This document shows positions 2,175 through 38,296 of a DNA stretch of 64,000 bases, piece by piece. Both the position numbers and the translations under genes were made by a program. The notes below the pieces were generated by a model, which was not told where the DNA came from, did no database searches, and saw nothing but the letters and a program-made list of their open reading frames with translations. The stretch comes from Metabacillus dongyingensis (GTDB lineage: Bacteria > Bacillota > Bacilli > Bacillales > Bacillaceae): positions 1,118,001 to 1,182,000 of the forward strand of contig NZ_CP082944.1 in assembly GCF_019933155.2 (NCBI RefSeq), given 5' to 3'. Every line of letters starts with the position of its first letter. Positions within the stretch are counted from its first letter, which is position 1.

Positions 2175-4025
2175 ATGTGTGGAATAACAGGCTGGGTTCA
2201 TTACCAGAAAGATCTGCAGCAGCATAAAAATGTCATAACAAATATGGCGGAATGCTTATCAAAGAGGGGACCGGATGATGCGAATGTGTGGGGAGAGCAG
2301 CACATTCTTTTTGGCCATAAACGTCTTGTAGTTGTCGATCCTGCAGGAGGAAGACAGCCGATGACCCGCAAAAAAGGAGAAAATACATTTACAATTTGCT
2401 ACAATGGCGAGCTATATAATACAGAAGATATCCGCCTGGAATTACTAAAGCGGGGGTATACCTTTGCAGGCCATTCTGACACAGAAGTTCTGCTGTCAGC
2501 GTACATGGAGTGGAAAGAAGAATGTGTGCATCATTTAAATGGTATTTTTGCCTTTGGGGTCTGGGACTCGGGTAGTGAAAAACTCTTCATTGCAAGAGAT
2601 CGATTAGGGGTAAAGCCGCTTTTTTATTCAGAGCAGAAGGCATCTCTAATTTTTGGCTCAGAACTGAAGGCAATCCTTGCACATCCTGATCAAAAGGCCG
2701 TTCTTGATCGGGAAGGATTAAGTGAGGTATTTGGACTTGGACCTTCCAGAACTCCTGGAATAGGCGTTTTTAAGGGAGTAAAGGAGCTCCGTCCTGCTCA
2801 TGCAATGACGTTTTCAAAAGAAGGGCTGAAGGTTTGGAGATATTGGAACGTGCAAAGCAGAAATCACCTTGATTCTTTTGATGAAACAGTCAGCCGCGTT
2901 GGATTTTTAGTCAATGATGCAGTGACTCGCCAGCTTGTTTCGGATGTTCCAGTGTGCACATTTCTTTCAGGAGGACTTGATTCAAGTGCGATCACCGCCA
3001 TTGCTGCAAAAGAGTTTGAAAAAGAAGGCAAGGGTCCCCTTCACACGTTTTCCATTGATTACGAAGATAATGATAAGTTTTTTAAAGCGAATGAATTTCA
3101 GCCAAACTCAGACGCTCCATGGATTGATAAAATGACGGATGCTTTTCAAACGGTTCACCACAGGTCAATCATCACACAGCAGCAGCTTGTTGATTACTTA
3201 ACGGAAGCCGTTGAAGTCAGAGATCTGCCTGGTATGGCGGATATTGATTCTTCTCTTCTATGGTTCTGCAAAGAAATTAAAAAAGATTTTGTCGTAGGAC
3301 TGTCAGGGGAATGTGCAGATGAAATATTCGGCGGATATCCGTGGTTTCACAGGCCGCAGGATTTATCCGAAGATGCATTTCCGTGGATGAGATCAACGGA
3401 TGCGAGGATGAATCTGCTTCGTACAGATTGGCAAAGCAAGCTGAATTTAAAAGAGTACGTGAAAACAAGATACCAGGAAACATTGAAAGAGACACCTCTT
3501 CTTGATGGTGAGTCTGAAACGGAATCTAAACGCAGGCAGCTGTTTTATCTCAATATTCTTTGGTTCATGACGACCTTGCTGGACCGGAAAGACCGCATGA
3601 GCATGGGAGCGAGTCTCGAAGTCCGTGTTCCGTTTGCGGACCATCGCCTCGTAGAGTATGTTTGGAACATTCCATGGGATATGAAAATGCATGGAAACCG
3701 GGAAAAAGGCATTCTCCGCAAAGCATTAGAAGGCGTGCTTCCGGAAGAAGTCCTTTACCGTAAAAAAAGCCCGTATCCAAAAACACATAATCCTCACTAT
3801 ACAAAAGCCGTAAAAACTTGGCTTCAGTCATTGACGAAAAACCAGGATTCTGCCCTTCACGTCTTTTTTGATAAAAAAGCGCTGAACGATATTATAGAAT
3901 CAGAAGGCAATGCGTTTCAGGCGCCTTGGTACGGACAGCTTATGACAGGTCCACAGCTGCTGGCACACCTTGCACAGATCCATGTCTGGTTTGAAAAGTA
4001 CAGAATCAATATCGAGGAATCTTAA
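2175..4025 (+). CDS. asnO: Glutamine-hydrolysing asparagine synthetase, AsnO type
   Basis: Class-II asparagine synthetase of 616 residues that makes asparagine from aspartate, ATP and glutamine. Cys2 is the N-terminal glutaminase nucleophile (MCGITGW); residues 1 to about 210 form the amidotransferase domain with RGPDD and CYNGELYN. The synthetase domain has the pyrophosphate loop SGGLDSS at 265-271 and the later LSGECADEIFGGYPWF and RVPFADHRLVEYVW motifs. Length matches B. subtilis AsnO (614), the paralogue needed for efficient sporulation, and the yisN neighbour supports that rather than AsnB or AsnH. I could not identify a convincing SigE promoter. A long repeat array follows the gene. Confidence 0.92.
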   Translation: MCGITGWVHYQKDLQQHKNVITNMAECLSKRGPDDANVWGEQHILFGHKRLVVVDPAGGRQPMTRKKGENTFTICYNGELYNTEDIRLELLKRGYTFAGHSDTEVLLSAYMEWKEECVHHLNGIFAFGVWDSGSEKLFIARDRLGVKPLFYSEQKASLIFGSELKAILAHPDQKAVLDREGLSEVFGLGPSRTPGIGVFKGVKELRPAHAMTFSKEGLKVWRYWNVQSRNHLDSFDETVSRVGFLVNDAVTRQLVSDVPVCTFLSGGLDSSAITAIAAKEFEKEGKGPLHTFSIDYEDNDKFFKANEFQPNSDAPWIDKMTDAFQTVHHRSIITQQQLVDYLTEAVEVRDLPGMADIDSSLLWFCKEIKKDFVVGLSGECADEIFGGYPWFHRPQDLSEDAFPWMRSTDARMNLLRTDWQSKLNLKEYVKTRYQETLKETPLLDGESETESKRRQLFYLNILWFMTTLLDRKDRMSMGASLEVRVPFADHRLVEYVWNIPWDMKMHGNREKGILRKALEGVLPEEVLYRKKSPYPKTHNPHYTKAVKTWLQSLTKNQDSALHVFFDKKALNDIIESEGNAFQAPWYGQLMTGPQLLAHLAQIHVWFEKYRINIEES

Positions 4026-4134: not shown

Positions 4135-5442
4135 TGTCCGCAGATCCAAGGAGTGAGCCAATATAGGGAAATCATACGCTCTCATTGAGTATCCAGATCC
4201 AGGATTGAGACTGTAAAGAGGAATCACAAGCACTCTATGAGTATCCAAAACCAGGATTGTGCCTGTTTAGGGGAAACATACGCACTCAATGAGTATCCAA
4301 AACCAGGATTGAGACTGTTTAGGGGAATCATGCGCACTCTATGAGTATCCAAAACCAAGTTTGAGACTGTTTAGGGGAATCATACGCACTCTATGAGTAT
4401 CCAAAATCAGGATTGAGACTGTAAAGAGGAATCATGCGCACTCTATGAGTATCCAAAACCAGGATTGAGACTGTTTAGGGGAATCATCCGCACTCTATGA
4501 GTATCCAAAACCAGGATTAAGCCTGTAAAGAGGAATCATACGCTTTCTATGAGTATCCAAATCCAGGATTAAGCCTGTAAAGATGAAACATACGCTCTTT
4601 ATGAGTATCCAAAACCAGGATTGAGACTGTAAAGAGGAATCATACGCACTCTATGAGTATCCAAAACCAGGATTATGACTGTAAAGAGGAATCACACGCA
4701 CTCTATGAGTATCCAAAATCAGGATTAAGCCTGTAAAGAGGAAACATACGCTCTTTATGAGTATCCAAAACCAGGATTGTGCCTGTTTAGGGGAAACATA
4801 CGCACTCTATGAGTATCCAAATCCAGGATTGTGCCTGTTTAGGGGAATCATACGCACTCTATGAGTATCCAAAACCAGGATTGAGACTGTAAAGAGGAAT
4901 CATACGCACTCTATGAGTATCCAAAACCAGGATTAAGCCTGTAAAGAGGAAACATACGCACTCTATGAGTATCCAAAACCAAGTTTGAGACTGTTTAGGG
5001 GAATCATACGCACTCTATGAGTATCCAAAACCAGGATTGAGACTGTAAAGAGGAATCATACGCACTCTGAGAGTATCCAAATCCAGGATTGAGACTGTAA
5101 AGAGGAATCACACGCACTCAATGAGTATCCAAAACCAAGTTTGAGACTGTTTAGGGGAATCATACGCACTCAATGAGTATCCAAAACCAGGATTAAGCCT
5201 GTAAAGAGGAATCATACGCACTCATTGAGTATCCAAAACCAGGATTGAGACTGTTTAGCGGAATCATACGCACTCTATGAGTATCCAAAACCAAGTTTGA
5301 GACTGTTTAGCGGAAACATACGCACTCTATGAGTATCCAAAACCAGGATTGAGCCTGTAAAGAGGAATCATACGCACTCTATGAGTATCCAAAACCAGGA
5401 TTGAGACTGTAAAGAGGAATCATACGCTCTCAATGAGTATCC
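4135..5442. repeat. Tandem array of 24 full 52-bp units, noncoding
   Basis: The octamer GAGTATCC occurs 25 times, at 4187, 4239, 4291 and every 52 bp to 5435, without a single insertion or deletion. This gives 24 complete units (4187-5434) plus a divergent left unit (4135-4186) that keeps only its right half, and a truncated right end. Each unit has conserved GAGTATCCA and ATACGCACTC blocks and variable inner words: AGGATT or AAGTTT, then CTGTAAAGAGG (14 units including one AAAGATG) or CTGTTTAG(G/C)GG (10). Unit junctions carry the palindrome ACTC-N3-GAGT. No frame is open through the array since 52 is not a multiple of three and units hold stops. It is not CRISPR because there are no spacers. 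Confidence 0.97.
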
Positions 5443-5610
5443 AAGATTTTCGGCTAGGCTAATAAGAGGGCATGTTAACTTAATAAAATGAGAAATCACA
5501 AAATACTGCGTTTTTCAGCTTAATCAAATAAGGGCATGGCAAAATCAAGTATTTATTAATAGATTCTTATTTGTCTGCATCACACTTTTTTGATTATTCT
5601 AAAATAATGA

Positions 5611-5639: not shown

Positions 5640-5663
5640 ACAGATATTCGAATTTAATAGCTT

Positions 5664-5769
5664 GCTTATCAAGAGAGACTGAGGGAACAGGCCCTGCGAA
5701 GTCCGGCAACCTCCTTAAATGGAACGGTGCTAAATCCTGCAGAATGATTATTCATTCTGGAAGATAAGT
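5664..5769 (+). promoter_or_regulatory. SAM-I (S-box) riboswitch aptamer upstream of metQ
   Basis: The P1 stem is CTTATC (5665-5670) with GATAAG (5763-5768). Between them are the conserved S-box blocks AAGAGAGACTGAGGGA, CAGGCCC and CCGGCAACC. In the known class, S-adenosylmethionine binding stabilises P1 and allows the downstream terminator, so expression is expected when SAM or methionine is low. Confidence 0.95.
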
Positions 5770-5782
5770 CGTCATACATACG

Positions 5783-5837: not shown

Positions 5838-6656
5838 ATGAAAAAAACAGTTTTAGCACTTATTGTACTTGTAATGGGAGTATTATCTGCATGCGGAGCA
5901 GAAGGCTCAAATGGAGAAAAGAAAAGCATCAAAATTGGAGCATCGGCAGGTCCGTACACGGATATGGTTGAACTGGCGATCAAACCGGGACTTGAGGAAA
6001 AAGGATACGAGGTTGAAGTTGTTCAGTTTAATGATTACATTCAGCCAAATCAGGCGCTCGGCAATGATGAGCTTGATGCCAATCTGTTTCAGCATAAAAT
6101 CTATATGGAAACCTTCGCAAAACAAAGCAAAATGGATTTATCTGAAGTGATTACGGTCCCTACTGCTCCGATGGGGATCTATTCTGACAAAGTCAAATCA
6201 CTCAGTGAAGTGAAAGTGGGCGCGACTGTCGCCATACCGAATGATCCAACGAACGCAGCGCGTGCGCTTCAGATTTTGAAAGATGGAGGGTTAGTTGAGC
6301 TGAATGAAGATGTGAGTCCTATCCAAGTATCTGAAAAAGATGTGACTGAAAATCCCAAAAAATTAACCTTCGTTCCAGTAGAAGCGGCCCAATTGCCAAG
6401 AGCGGTGGAAGATACGGACTTGTCAGCAGTACCGGGAAATTTCGCTTTAGCCGCGAAAATGAATCTTGCAGATGCCGTCCAGCTTGAGGATATGAATGAT
6501 GTGCATCGCAATCGTGTAGTGATGAATACGAAAGATGCAGATTCAGAGCTTGCTAAGGATATTAAAGAAGTTGTTGAATCTGAAGGATTTGAAGAAGAAA
6601 TTGATAAAAACTTTCAGGGATTCGGAAAACCCGATTGGATGGAACAGAAGAAATAA
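5838..6656 (+). CDS. metQ: Methionine-binding lipoprotein, MetQ/NlpA family
   Basis: A 272-residue substrate-binding lipoprotein for a methionine-type ABC importer. The signal peptide ends in a lipobox (LSACG, Cys near residue 20) and the mature protein starts IKIGASAGPYTDMVELAIKP, followed by the family blocks NDYIQPNQAL, DANLFQHKIYME, VGATVAIPNDPTN and VPGNFALAAKM. The start has AAGGAGGAG. The S-box upstream links it to methionine supply. The usual metN (ATPase) and metP/metI (permease) genes are absent on both sides, so this copy stands alone and probably works with a transporter encoded elsewhere. Confidence 0.92.
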   Translation: MKKTVLALIVLVMGVLSACGAEGSNGEKKSIKIGASAGPYTDMVELAIKPGLEEKGYEVEVVQFNDYIQPNQALGNDELDANLFQHKIYMETFAKQSKMDLSEVITVPTAPMGIYSDKVKSLSEVKVGATVAIPNDPTNAARALQILKDGGLVELNEDVSPIQVSEKDVTENPKKLTFVPVEAAQLPRAVEDTDLSAVPGNFALAAKMNLADAVQLEDMNDVHRNRVVMNTKDADSELAKDIKEVVESEGFEEEIDKNFQGFGKPDWMEQKK

Positions 6657-21736: not shown

Positions 21737-24121
21737 TCATTTCTCCGGCAATAATGTCAATTTCTCTCCCGCATGCTCAGGCTGTATATCCGTCACATGA
21801 TAAGTACCGTTTACCCAATCCTGAAGCTGATCCTGATACCAGCTGCTTCTGACATGACCTGACTGGCCCGGTCCGACAATGTGATGTCCTTTGGCGAGGT
21901 CTGCTGCATCAATGACAAACCTCCAAGAAGCGCCGTGGTCCACAATTCCCTCTTCATTGTAATTTGCTGCGCCCACCGTAATTTGGCTGCCGCCGACAGG
22001 CACTGGTTTCTCATGATTAAACAGCCATTTTAAAACTGGGGAGGCATTTGAGAGAGGGTGTCCGAAATAAAGCTGATGATAGTCACCCCATTTCCATGCC
22101 TTAGGGTTATCCCCGTATTCTTCTTTAAGAGAAACTACCACATTCTCAAAAGAAGTGAGCAATACTTGATCAAGGCCGCCCTTATCTGAGAACCACTCAG
22201 ATTCATCGCCGTTAAATGCACGTCTAAGGAGTTCATCAACGATTCCCTGTTTTCCTTCAAATAAGTCATCCATTTCATTTGGTACAGCATCCTTAAAAAG
22301 GGTGAGCGGAATTTCTTTCATCAGCAAGTGAAAGAGAAGAGGAGCTGCCAAGTCTTTATCATCTGTCATATTCCATTTTGAAAGCAAATTCACAGAAGCT
22401 TTTTCGGCCTTATTCAGATCACCCGCTCTAATCCTTTCAAGAATAAAAGGCAAAAATTCTTCGGCATATAAATTCCGCTGATCCATCTGCAGTTTTTTCA
22501 TATCATTTAAAGTGAACTTTTCTTCTTTCTCTAAAACCTCTTTTATCCTCATATACCGATAAGGCTGGGCCCAATGATGACTGAGATGGTAAGGGTAAGA
22601 ATCATCAATCACCTTATTGTTTGCCGTAGCAACAAACCCTTCTTCGGGATTGACCGAACGGGGAAGCTCGTCATAGGGGATGAATCCTTCCCATTCATAT
22701 TCATCTGTCCAGCCCGGTACAGGAATCATGCCGTCTCCTTTTTTCCTGATTGGAATTTTCCCGTTGGCTTTATAGGCAATCGTTCCGTCTGCCCCGGCAA
22801 AAACAAAATTTTGCGTTGGAACGTGAAAATCTTCAAGTGCCTGTTCGAATTCGTTCCAATCTTTAGCTTTGTTCATTGAGAGCACTGCCTGGAATTCTGT
22901 TGACGGCATAAGGGCTGTCCATTTCATTGAGAGTGCTGTATTCTGTTTTTTATCAAATGCAAATTCAGACATAATCGGACCGTGTCTTGTTTCAATAACC
23001 TCATATTCAAGTGTCTTTTCATCCTTAACCGCAATTGGCTCTTTAAACACTTTCGCATCTTCCCATTTGTTGTTATATAAAAATTGGTGCGGATTAACCG
23101 GATTTCGTTTTTCAATATATAAATCCTGTACATCTGGTCCTGTATTTGTCACCCCCCAGGCAATATGATCATTGTGTCCAAGAATAATTCCCGGGACCCC
23201 GGCAAAGACAACGCCGCTGACATTCATGCTGTCACTTTGCAGATGCATCTGATACCAAATCGACGGTGTGGCGAGTGAAAGATGGGGATCATCTGCAAGC
23301 AGCGGCTTTCCGCTTTCGCTTTTTTCACCGCTTACAACCCAGTTGTTGCTTCCGTTAAATTCAGGTGGAATAACGGCACTTGCAAAACTTTTTTCCAAGT
23401 TCATATCCACTTCCTCATAAGCGGACAGAATTTCAGGTGCATCCTTTGGATAGGAAGGGAATAAGTCATATGCTTTCTCTTTTGAAAACGTACCTAAAGC
23501 CCAGTAGCGAAACGCCTGCCCGGACCAGTGACCGCCTAAATCAAAAGCCATGTATTTACCGATTGTAAGTGAATCGATTGGTGTCCATTCTGCCGGCTCA
23601 TATTTCAGCAGTTTAAATTCAAGAGGCAGCGTACCTTCTGCTTTTGCTTCTTTCATAAAAACATTTACACCGTCTGCAAACCACTGCATAGCATCTCTGG
23701 AGGATTGATCATACTCAGGATATGAAGCTTCAGCTGCCCTTCTTAAGCCCAGCGTTCTGAAAAACTTGTCCTTATCAATAGTGGCCGCGCCTACCACTTC
23801 ACTCAGCATTCCTGATGCCTGTCTCCTGCTTAAATCCATCTGGAAGAGGCGATCCTGAGCCTGTACATATCCCTGCGCGATGTATAAATCCTTTTCAGAT
23901 TGCGCGGTAATATGCGGAACTCCATTTTTATCCCTGGTTACTTCAACTGCATTGGTCATTCCGCTTACAATTACTTCTCCCTTTAGTTGGGGAAGACTTT
24001 TCTCAATGAAAAGGTTTACAAAAATAAATGCACTTATTAATAGAAAGAGAAGTGCACCAAGTCCAATCCATAAACTCCTTCGCCGCTTAGGTTCAAATCT
24101 TCGTTCAGCCTTTGCCTCCAT
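21737..24121 (-). CDS. Penicillin acylase family N-terminal-nucleophile hydrolase
   Basis: A 794-residue member of the penicillin G/AHL acylase family (peptidase S45). After a basic cytosolic start and one membrane anchor (about 16-40) comes the alpha-chain region with VEVTRDKNGVPHITAQS. The spacer ends before Ser258 (GSNNWVVSG), the expected nucleophile exposed by autocleavage, followed by LADDPHLSLATPSIWYQMH. It would hydrolyse amide bonds outside the membrane; substrate (penicillin side chains, acyl-homoserine lactones or peptides) is unknown. ATG at 24121 is favoured because the GTG at 24130 overlaps the TGGAGTG ribosome site. Stands alone. Confidence 0.88.
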   Translation of the reverse strand: MEAKAERRFEPKRRRSLWIGLGALLFLLISAFIFVNLFIEKSLPQLKGEVIVSGMTNAVEVTRDKNGVPHITAQSEKDLYIAQGYVQAQDRLFQMDLSRRQASGMLSEVVGAATIDKDKFFRTLGLRRAAEASYPEYDQSSRDAMQWFADGVNVFMKEAKAEGTLPLEFKLLKYEPAEWTPIDSLTIGKYMAFDLGGHWSGQAFRYWALGTFSKEKAYDLFPSYPKDAPEILSAYEEVDMNLEKSFASAVIPPEFNGSNNWVVSGEKSESGKPLLADDPHLSLATPSIWYQMHLQSDSMNVSGVVFAGVPGIILGHNDHIAWGVTNTGPDVQDLYIEKRNPVNPHQFLYNNKWEDAKVFKEPIAVKDEKTLEYEVIETRHGPIMSEFAFDKKQNTALSMKWTALMPSTEFQAVLSMNKAKDWNEFEQALEDFHVPTQNFVFAGADGTIAYKANGKIPIRKKGDGMIPVPGWTDEYEWEGFIPYDELPRSVNPEEGFVATANNKVIDDSYPYHLSHHWAQPYRYMRIKEVLEKEEKFTLNDMKKLQMDQRNLYAEEFLPFILERIRAGDLNKAEKASVNLLSKWNMTDDKDLAAPLLFHLLMKEIPLTLFKDAVPNEMDDLFEGKQGIVDELLRRAFNGDESEWFSDKGGLDQVLLTSFENVVVSLKEEYGDNPKAWKWGDYHQLYFGHPLSNASPVLKWLFNHEKPVPVGGSQITVGAANYNEEGIVDHGASWRFVIDAADLAKGHHIVGPGQSGHVRSSWYQDQLQDWVNGTYHVTDIQPEHAGEKLTLLPEK

Positions 24122-37974: not shown

Positions 37975-38025
37975 AAACAAAAAAAGCCTTCCAAGAAGAA
38001 GACTTTTGAACGTTCAGGACTTCTT
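37975..38025 (-). terminator. Expression-platform terminator of the yitJ S-box
   Basis: On the minus strand AAGAAGAAG pairs with CTTCTTCTT across an inner AACGTT-centred pairing, followed after a few bases by TTTTTTT. Exact stem boundaries are uncertain. Confidence 0.7.
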
Positions 38026-38154
38026 CTTATCGTTCGATGGATGCATCGCTGGAATTAGCACCTTGGATTGAAATCTCTGATGAAGACAGATGATTTCATT
38101 ATGCCAGGTTGCTGAAGCTTCAAAGGGCCAGTCCCTCAGCTTCTCTAGATAAGA
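38026..38154 (-). promoter_or_regulatory. SAM-I (S-box) riboswitch of yitJ-metH
   Basis: Read on the minus strand: P1 CTTATC (38153-38148) pairs with GATAAG (38031-38026); the conserved blocks AGAGAAGCTGAGGGA, CTGGCCC and CAGCAACC lie between. A TATAAT box on the same strand at 38190-38185 with a weak -35 probably starts the transcript. Expected to switch the operon off when SAM is high. Confidence 0.94.
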
Positions 38155-38296
38155 ATGGTGAAATATGAAATTTTAGAAAAAGATATTATATCTAATTTAC
38201 ATGTTTTTTCGGATAGATTCAATACAAAAATAAAACTTTTCTGAATAGACGGGGAATTTGTTGAGGGGAAATCGAAGCAGATACTTGCAGAACAAC

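Follow-up and report, generated by a model that had tools for sequence, protein, structure and literature searches.

What is the tandem array of 52-bp units that lies between an asnO-like gene and a gene for a MetQ/NlpA-family lipoprotein in Metabacillus dongyingensis, and is it read by a protein? The window, i. e. the stretch of 64,000 nucleotides that was analysed here, contains a very regular array: The anchor GAGTATCC occurs 25 times from 4187 to 5435 with 24 of 24 intervals of exactly 52 bp, and Tandem Repeats Finder (TRF) reports a period of 52 from 4170 to 5444, with 24.5 copies, 88% matches and 0% indels. The 25 anchors and the 52-bp phase free of indels over 24 units that an earlier note had read from this DNA are thus confirmed. 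Its extent of 4135..5442 starts slightly early as compared to the edges scored with the consensus (4149-5444). The linkage of inner words also held when it was rechecked over 24 units: AAGTTT goes with TTTAG in 4/4 cases, GTGCCTGT with TTTAGGGG in 3/3, and AAGCCTGT with AAAGA(G/T)G in 5/5. The only other tandem repeat found by TRF in the 64 kb is a 12-bp repeat of 2.1 copies. Inside the array there is neither an Rfam match nor an open frame of at least 70 amino acids, and a unit of 52 bp is not divisible by three. The features are collected in Table 1; a second SAM riboswitch of the window is located at 38024-38155 on the reverse strand.

Table 1. Coordinates of the array, its first unit and its neighbours (window positions), and of two tandem repeats on the second contig (locus positions)
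Feature	Position	Strand	Basis
52-bp tandem array, 25 anchors	4149..5444		anchors, TRF, consensus scoring
Site A footprint, first unit (unit positions -10..+4; TCATA inside), recurs every 52 bp	4162..4176		phase from anchors and unit alignment
7-bp linker separating sites A and B, first unit; length constant, letters variable	4177..4183		unit alignments
Site B footprint, first unit (+12..+26; TTGAGTATCC inside, TATGAGTATCC in most units)	4184..4198		anchors and unit alignment
asnO-like glutamine-hydrolysing asparagine synthase gene, upstream of array	2175..4025	+	TIGR01536, 548.9 bits over its cut-off; PF00733
SAM riboswitch RF00162, downstream of array, separate from it	5663..5770	+	Rfam match
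MetQ/NlpA-family lipoprotein gene, downstream, separate from array	5838..6656	+	PF03180, 246.9 bits; NCBIfam MetQ models below cut-offs
Tandem repeat, 481 bp, second contig	L228:14980-16893		unguided repeat-finding
Tandem repeat, 95 bp, second contig	L234:3275-3659		unguided repeat-finding

Each unit consists of two sites of about 15 bp that are mirrored over 7 bp. The distances between the palindrome centres are 21 and 31 bp, which add up to 52 bp, and at 10.4 bp per turn these three lengths correspond to two, three and five helical turns. The core TCAWA-N7-TWTGA is present once per aligned unit; in its exact form it is found nine times in the window, eight times within the array (shuffled mean 1.17), and the looser core used for the consensus set gives 11 for this array. 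The ninth exact occurrence, at 23709-23725, is about at chance level. In the M. dongyingensis genome, site A resembles TTTGAGTACTCAWA or TTTGRGGAATCAWA and site B TWTGAGTAYYCAAA or TATGATTCCYC. The earlier note had regarded ACTC-N3-GAGT, a palindrome at the unit junctions, as the common element. This word extends into the 7-bp linker, the letters of which vary between arrays, and what the other arrays have in common is TCAWA-N7-TWTGA with its flanking arms. The operators of GlnR and TnrA, TGTNA-N7-TNACA, have the same 5-7-5 inverted-repeat layout; however, their letters differ, and they are single operators rather than 52-bp arrays.

The array has many relatives on the same chromosome. A 104-base query gave 148 matches in 21 places of the genome, and the 20 places besides the window, together with the window itself, harbour 22 arrays, with copy numbers from 6 to 31 and a linker sequence particular to each. 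TRF assigns a period of 52 to 21 of them, the exception being L035 (53, with 8% indels). The search of this and related genomes that had been proposed in the earlier note was rewarding: Query, profile searches and unguided repeat-finding together reveal at least 32 array positions in M. dongyingensis, and there are patchy related arrays in other Bacillales. Unguided repeat-finding in 1.0 Mb of the chromosome returned 11 loci above the score limit, five with a period-52 row and one with period 51; the remaining loci have periods of 228, 42, 30, 33 and 21 bp. The second contig, of which 0.2 Mb were read, gave no period-52 array but two repeats with periods of 481 and 95 bp. The 228-bp repeat (L197:12189-14109, chromosome about 4.866 Mb; 8.4 copies, 95% matches) contains, by eye, similar words about 21 bp apart. 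Moreover, a period-51 array at L199:3519-4029 (about 2.0235 Mb) has an apparent 6-bp core gap, TCATA-ACTTAG-TTTGA, as judged by eye from the TRF unit, and the arrays L046:5157-5656 and L192:16072-16902 share a variant with TATGC in place of TATGA.

All 22 arrays are located between larger open reading frames (tolerance 100 bp; 88 bp of the L031 array reach into the end of a 130-aa frame). Inside or across arrays, there are some smaller frames of less than 100 aa. If neighbouring frames of at least 120 aa are considered, 11 arrays are in co-directional, eight in convergent and three in divergent settings. No neighbour gene is common to most array loci: The largest gene cluster spans 14 loci. 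Among 228 strict sites in the genome sequence read, only three do not have at least two neighbours in phase, and each of these lies inside the array L035 or L047; thus, the sites are not scattered operators. The edges of the arrays are spread over the phases of the unit. As judged by eye, their orientation with respect to replication has no clear bias. Coordinate 1 of the chromosome is, by eye, the start of a dnaA-like frame, and the GC skew switches its sign there. The origin-proximal half holds 23 of the 32 array positions (p=0.010; the position list is incomplete) and 19 of 26 (p=0.014) after removal of the six positions that come from the unguided reading alone, i. e. there is a modest origin bias.

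Irregular spacing at many loci, which the earlier note had set against phased sites, is the opposite of what we observed: The distances between neighbouring cores are exact multiples of 52 bp in 273 of 311 cases in M. dongyingensis, in 100 of 128 cases in the same genus, and in 302 of 345 cases in other genomes, the last figure being biased since those loci had been picked with a 52-bp pattern. The scan of named genomes required two cores 52 bp apart, and the distance counts omit L062 and L064. The exceptions are mostly 1 bp off. The few large offsets are close to whole turns in M. dongyingensis (p about 0.05) and in the same genus (p about 0.27), in neither case significantly, and this closeness to whole turns is absent from the other genomes. 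The pattern GGGAATCAWA-N{4,14}-TWTGATTCCC, searched in 397 genomes of the order, matched in four genomes (129 forward matches), and among the matches listed the gap is exactly 7 in 19 of 19 distinct places, with lengths from 4 to 14 allowed. The loci of these places have a period of 52, some of 51; L280, L284 and L285 are lone sites without an array. Arrays differ in their linker letters, and even within one genome in their arm letters: Geometry, not letters, is the common property of the arrays across genomes.

The family is rare. The two-unit pattern was present in six of 100 relatives and in four of 398 genomes of a class sample, so that the family seems to be dispensable. A profile search gave matches in 11 of 60 relatives, with at least 20 matches each in G000 (M. 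dongyingensis itself), G001, G002, G005, G006, G010 and G069 and a single one in each of four others. Among the matches listed, the genera are Metabacillus, Cytobacillus, Neobacillus, Sutcliffiella, Ammoniphilus, Schinkia, Lysinibacillus and Aquibacillus, all Bacillales. Seven single matches outside of this order (L058, L065, L072, L078, L099, L134 and L135) are taken as chance and are omitted from the neighbour-gene and core-distance counts: In five of them no tandem repeat passed the limit, L078 has an unrelated 48-bp repeat and L058 a two-copy 52-bp duplication. Array loci were also seen in the records of Pseudomonas sp. ISL-84 (L101, L122) and Paenibacillus bovis DE0126 (L066, L097); judging by the arrays, these records may be mislabelled Bacillaceae. 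Phage, plasmid and viral collections, from which records very near to this genome may be absent, gave no match. We are thus dealing with a real repeat family that keeps its geometry in several genera of the Bacillales. Repeat arrays between genes are known from bacteria; we know of no others that retain their period, gap and site geometry across genera while most letters change, and no description of such arrays was found in the literature searched, in which subscription journals are thinly covered.

The variation within arrays is unevenly distributed over the unit, in M. dongyingensis as well as in the other genomes: Two footprints of about 15 bp (-10 to +4 and +12 to +26) vary little, the 7-bp linker and the longer spacer strongly. 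In M. dongyingensis, 19 of 19 arrays have a lower variability in the footprints than in the linkers (mean entropy 0.308 vs 0.547 over 343 units), and the same holds for 44 of 47 arrays from other genomes (0.508 vs 0.777 over 564 units). With the core columns removed, this is still the case for 19 of 19 and 42 of 47 arrays, respectively, and no circular shift of the footprint mask outperforms the actual placement. Taken by itself, the window array shows a small difference (0.283 vs 0.362). The variability of the 47 arrays from other genomes has a 10.4-bp component (R2 0.49, 0/2000 permutations, p<0.0005; best period 10.8), which is retained without the core columns (R2 0.32, p=0.003) with a free fit that then prefers 6.9 bp. 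This component is less pronounced in M. dongyingensis (p=0.023 with a best period of 11.2; p=0.165 without the core columns). Arrays with an indel-broken 52-bp lattice are omitted from the entropy and helical tests (22 reduced to 19 and 49 to 47), and arrays with fewer than two cores (eight listed) from the footprint, covariation and folding counts. Five loci with a period near 52 or 104 have at most one TCAWW-N7-WWTGA core (L060:1057-1589, L081:5072-5359, L131:6337-6816, L137:1819-2297 and L189:18434-19168); they are either diverged relatives or period-52 arrays with a different site.

The equal period and inner geometry in arrays of unlike sequence, the two footprints of low variation and the whole-turn spacings support the idea, which we prefer to the other readings and regard as somewhat probable, that the array belongs to a dispersed chromosomal family of protein-binding arrays, i. 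e. that it is a scaffold of paired dimer sites for a putative binder. In this respect, the earlier proposal of phased binding sites gains support, with the exception of ACTC-N3-GAGT as the common site. Each 52-bp unit would provide two sites of about 15 bp for a dimeric DNA-binding protein, mirrored over 7 bp, and centres 21 and 31 bp apart would bring all sites to one face of the helix. An array of some 6 to 31 such units would then form a long one-sided platform, on which dimers bound side by side might wrap, bridge or anchor the chromosome, and unequal exchange in 52-bp steps would homogenise the units of an array. We infer that the bound protein constrains the arrays and that exchange keeps the 52-bp register; that the role is in nucleoid organisation or anchoring is a guess.

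The comparison of related genomes suggests that arrays are gained, lost, diverge or are replaced, and presence and absence between relatives is seen at the very locus studied here: G005, the closest relative examined (MetQ 97% identical), has 46 bp of unrelated sequence in the asnO-metQ region where M. dongyingensis has 1.31 kb with the array. By their flanks, six of 20 loci from G005, G006 and G001, which were compared with a part of the M. dongyingensis sequence, match its array loci. In the pair L033/L269 the array is kept (consensus identical at 50/52 positions), and in L032/L270 it is more diverged (43/52) than the flanks, which are about 95% identical. For L036/L267 (flanks about 90-96%), no array-joining alignment of at least 250 bp was obtained at E 1e-30; the printed units of L035 and L267 are unreliable due to their indel-broken lattice. 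Linkers are more similar within arrays than between them (identity 0.77 vs 0.54). The unit of the window array and that of L049 on the other replichore are 96% identical, and the flanks are unrelated. When the window array was compared with the four arrays most closely related to it, no long register of high identity was found that would point to block copying (best 0.90 over 285 bp).

Such arrays might be a selfish or neutral satellite family without a role for the host, the units of which are spread to new intergenic places by recombination, with core and period inherited from one ancestor and kept by in-register exchange. This would fit well with the presence or absence of the asnO-metQ array between close relatives, the patchy distribution, the kinship of the window and L049 units, and the fact that divergent gene pairs are the rarest setting (3/22). 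However, the footprints, but not the linkers, are alike within arrays and between genera, and this needs selection of some kind. Moreover, the lengths of 7 and 52 bp are kept despite the turnover of linker letters, and some loci are kept in related species. We consider a satellite without any function unlikely. What does hold of the satellite that the earlier note had offered as its second alternative is that units resemble each other more closely inside one array than across arrays, and that arrays are present, absent or diverged at orthologous places; both alternatives look partly right together.

The arms of the sites vary in concert, as a palindrome around one centre, outside of M. dongyingensis. 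Over 61 consensuses of arrays from other genomes, positions in the arms outside of the core are paired in 144 of 244 cases as compared to 97.7+-6.4 with shuffled partners (0/2000), and a second arm comparison gave 116 of 244 vs 81.6+-6.5 (0/2000), figures that overstate the evidence since arrays of one genome are not independent. Excess pairing is absent from the 7-bp linker, the spacer and shifted centres of these consensuses. In M. dongyingensis, the arms are anti-correlated (46/88 vs 56.0+-3.5): Most units pair one ATTCC-type arm with one AGTAY-type arm. Here, the single sites are closer to palindromes (pairing of 61% in site A as compared to 18% elsewhere). The covarying arms, and z values below -2 on at least one strand for 14 of 22 M. 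dongyingensis arrays and 72% of 54 others, might suggest that the arrays act as RNA, i. e. as transcripts with one hairpin per unit. This seems highly improbable to us: Neither strand of the window array is structured (z +0.5 and +0.9), the arms are anti-correlated in its own genome, every orientation to the neighbour genes is found, there is no Rfam match in the array, and among the rows listed most structured arrays fold well on both strands, as a DNA palindrome would. RNA structure is not common to the arrays.

A central region of 7 bp and constant length between inverted arms, together with the expansion, movement and exchange of the arrays, is also compatible with target sites of a recombinase or integrase that catalyses exchange between units, in the style of the neisserial NIMEs with their dRS3 elements. 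Like the arrays studied here, NIMEs are intergenic arrays, of 200-2700 bp, composed of short inverted repeats and spacers (PMC3898611, available in part). However, dRS3 is ATTCCC-N8-GGGAAT, whereas our arrays have a fixed period of 52 and a 7-bp gap. This dRS3 pattern was not found in 305 fetched loci, and within two mismatches it occurs four times in the window (3.2 expected) and not in the array. Such a target would need to match its partner in the centre, but the 7-bp centre belongs to the parts that vary most within arrays; the phage, plasmid and viral collections are without a match, and array-rich and array-poor members of the genus cannot be told apart by their numbers of tyrosine recombinases. 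We regard recombination targets as improbable.

For the scaffold reading, the question arises which protein might bind. RacA was taken as a candidate since its sites in Bacillus subtilis are dense near the replication origin (PMC6593407, available in part), which resembles the moderate origin bias of the arrays. RacA is present in 52 of 60 relatives and does not follow the arrays; strong matches (59-60% identity, E about 1e-20) were obtained in 7/7 members of the genus, array-rich and array-poor, two of them with one array match each. Moreover, the ram motif is absent from the array (up to three mismatches: two in the window, 0.91 expected). A second Lrp/AsnC paralog appeared to track the arrays inside the genus. 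Among the 60 relatives, however, there are close orthologs in genomes without an array match, such as G009, G025 and G061 (78-81%). Of the array-bearing genomes, G069 offers no more than a match of 28%, and in G010 the match is partial and contains a stop. The best NCBIfam match of this paralog, below the cut-off, is a chromate-efflux regulator. Lrp-type dimers bind clustered semi-palindromic sites with centres two or three helical turns apart on the same face of the DNA, which is wrapped (PMC2995911, available in part). The arrays may work in a similar way, as they too have semi-palindromic sites two or three turns apart (21 and 31 bp; the helical test is mixed). The Lrp/AsnC clusters differ in that they are located in gene control regions, whereas our arrays are intergenic, with some 6-31 tandem units in dozens of places, and the single paralog checked does not follow them.

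The scaffold reading gains further support from the 7-bp gap in all 19 listed places, from the arm covariation in the 61 arrays of other genomes, and from the two- or three-turn spacing on one face that is used by Lrp-type dimers (PMC2995911, available in part). It is weakened by the failure of RacA, the one Lrp paralog and the tyrosine-recombinase counts to follow the arrays, by the weak helical component in M. dongyingensis and the 6.9-bp free fit elsewhere without the core columns, and by the small difference between footprints and linkers in the window array. The anti-correlated arms in this genome, the rarity and patchiness of the family, and arm letters that differ between arrays of one genome, which is unexpected for one protein of fixed specificity, also argue against it. 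It is tempting to go one step further and to speculate, tentatively and with considerable doubt, on a bacterial chromatin-scaffold system: tens of origin-biased arrays in which the information would be the geometry (five turns, two mirrored sites, two plus three turns) rather than the sequence, and a putative binder the specificity of which would drift alongside, as for eukaryotic centromere satellites and their binder. If no protein reads the arrays, they would be a clear bacterial case of dispersing satellite DNA. If a protein does, they would provide a natural multi-copy system, polymorphic for presence and absence, for chromosome folding or anchoring, and also for the co-evolution of a binder and its satellite.
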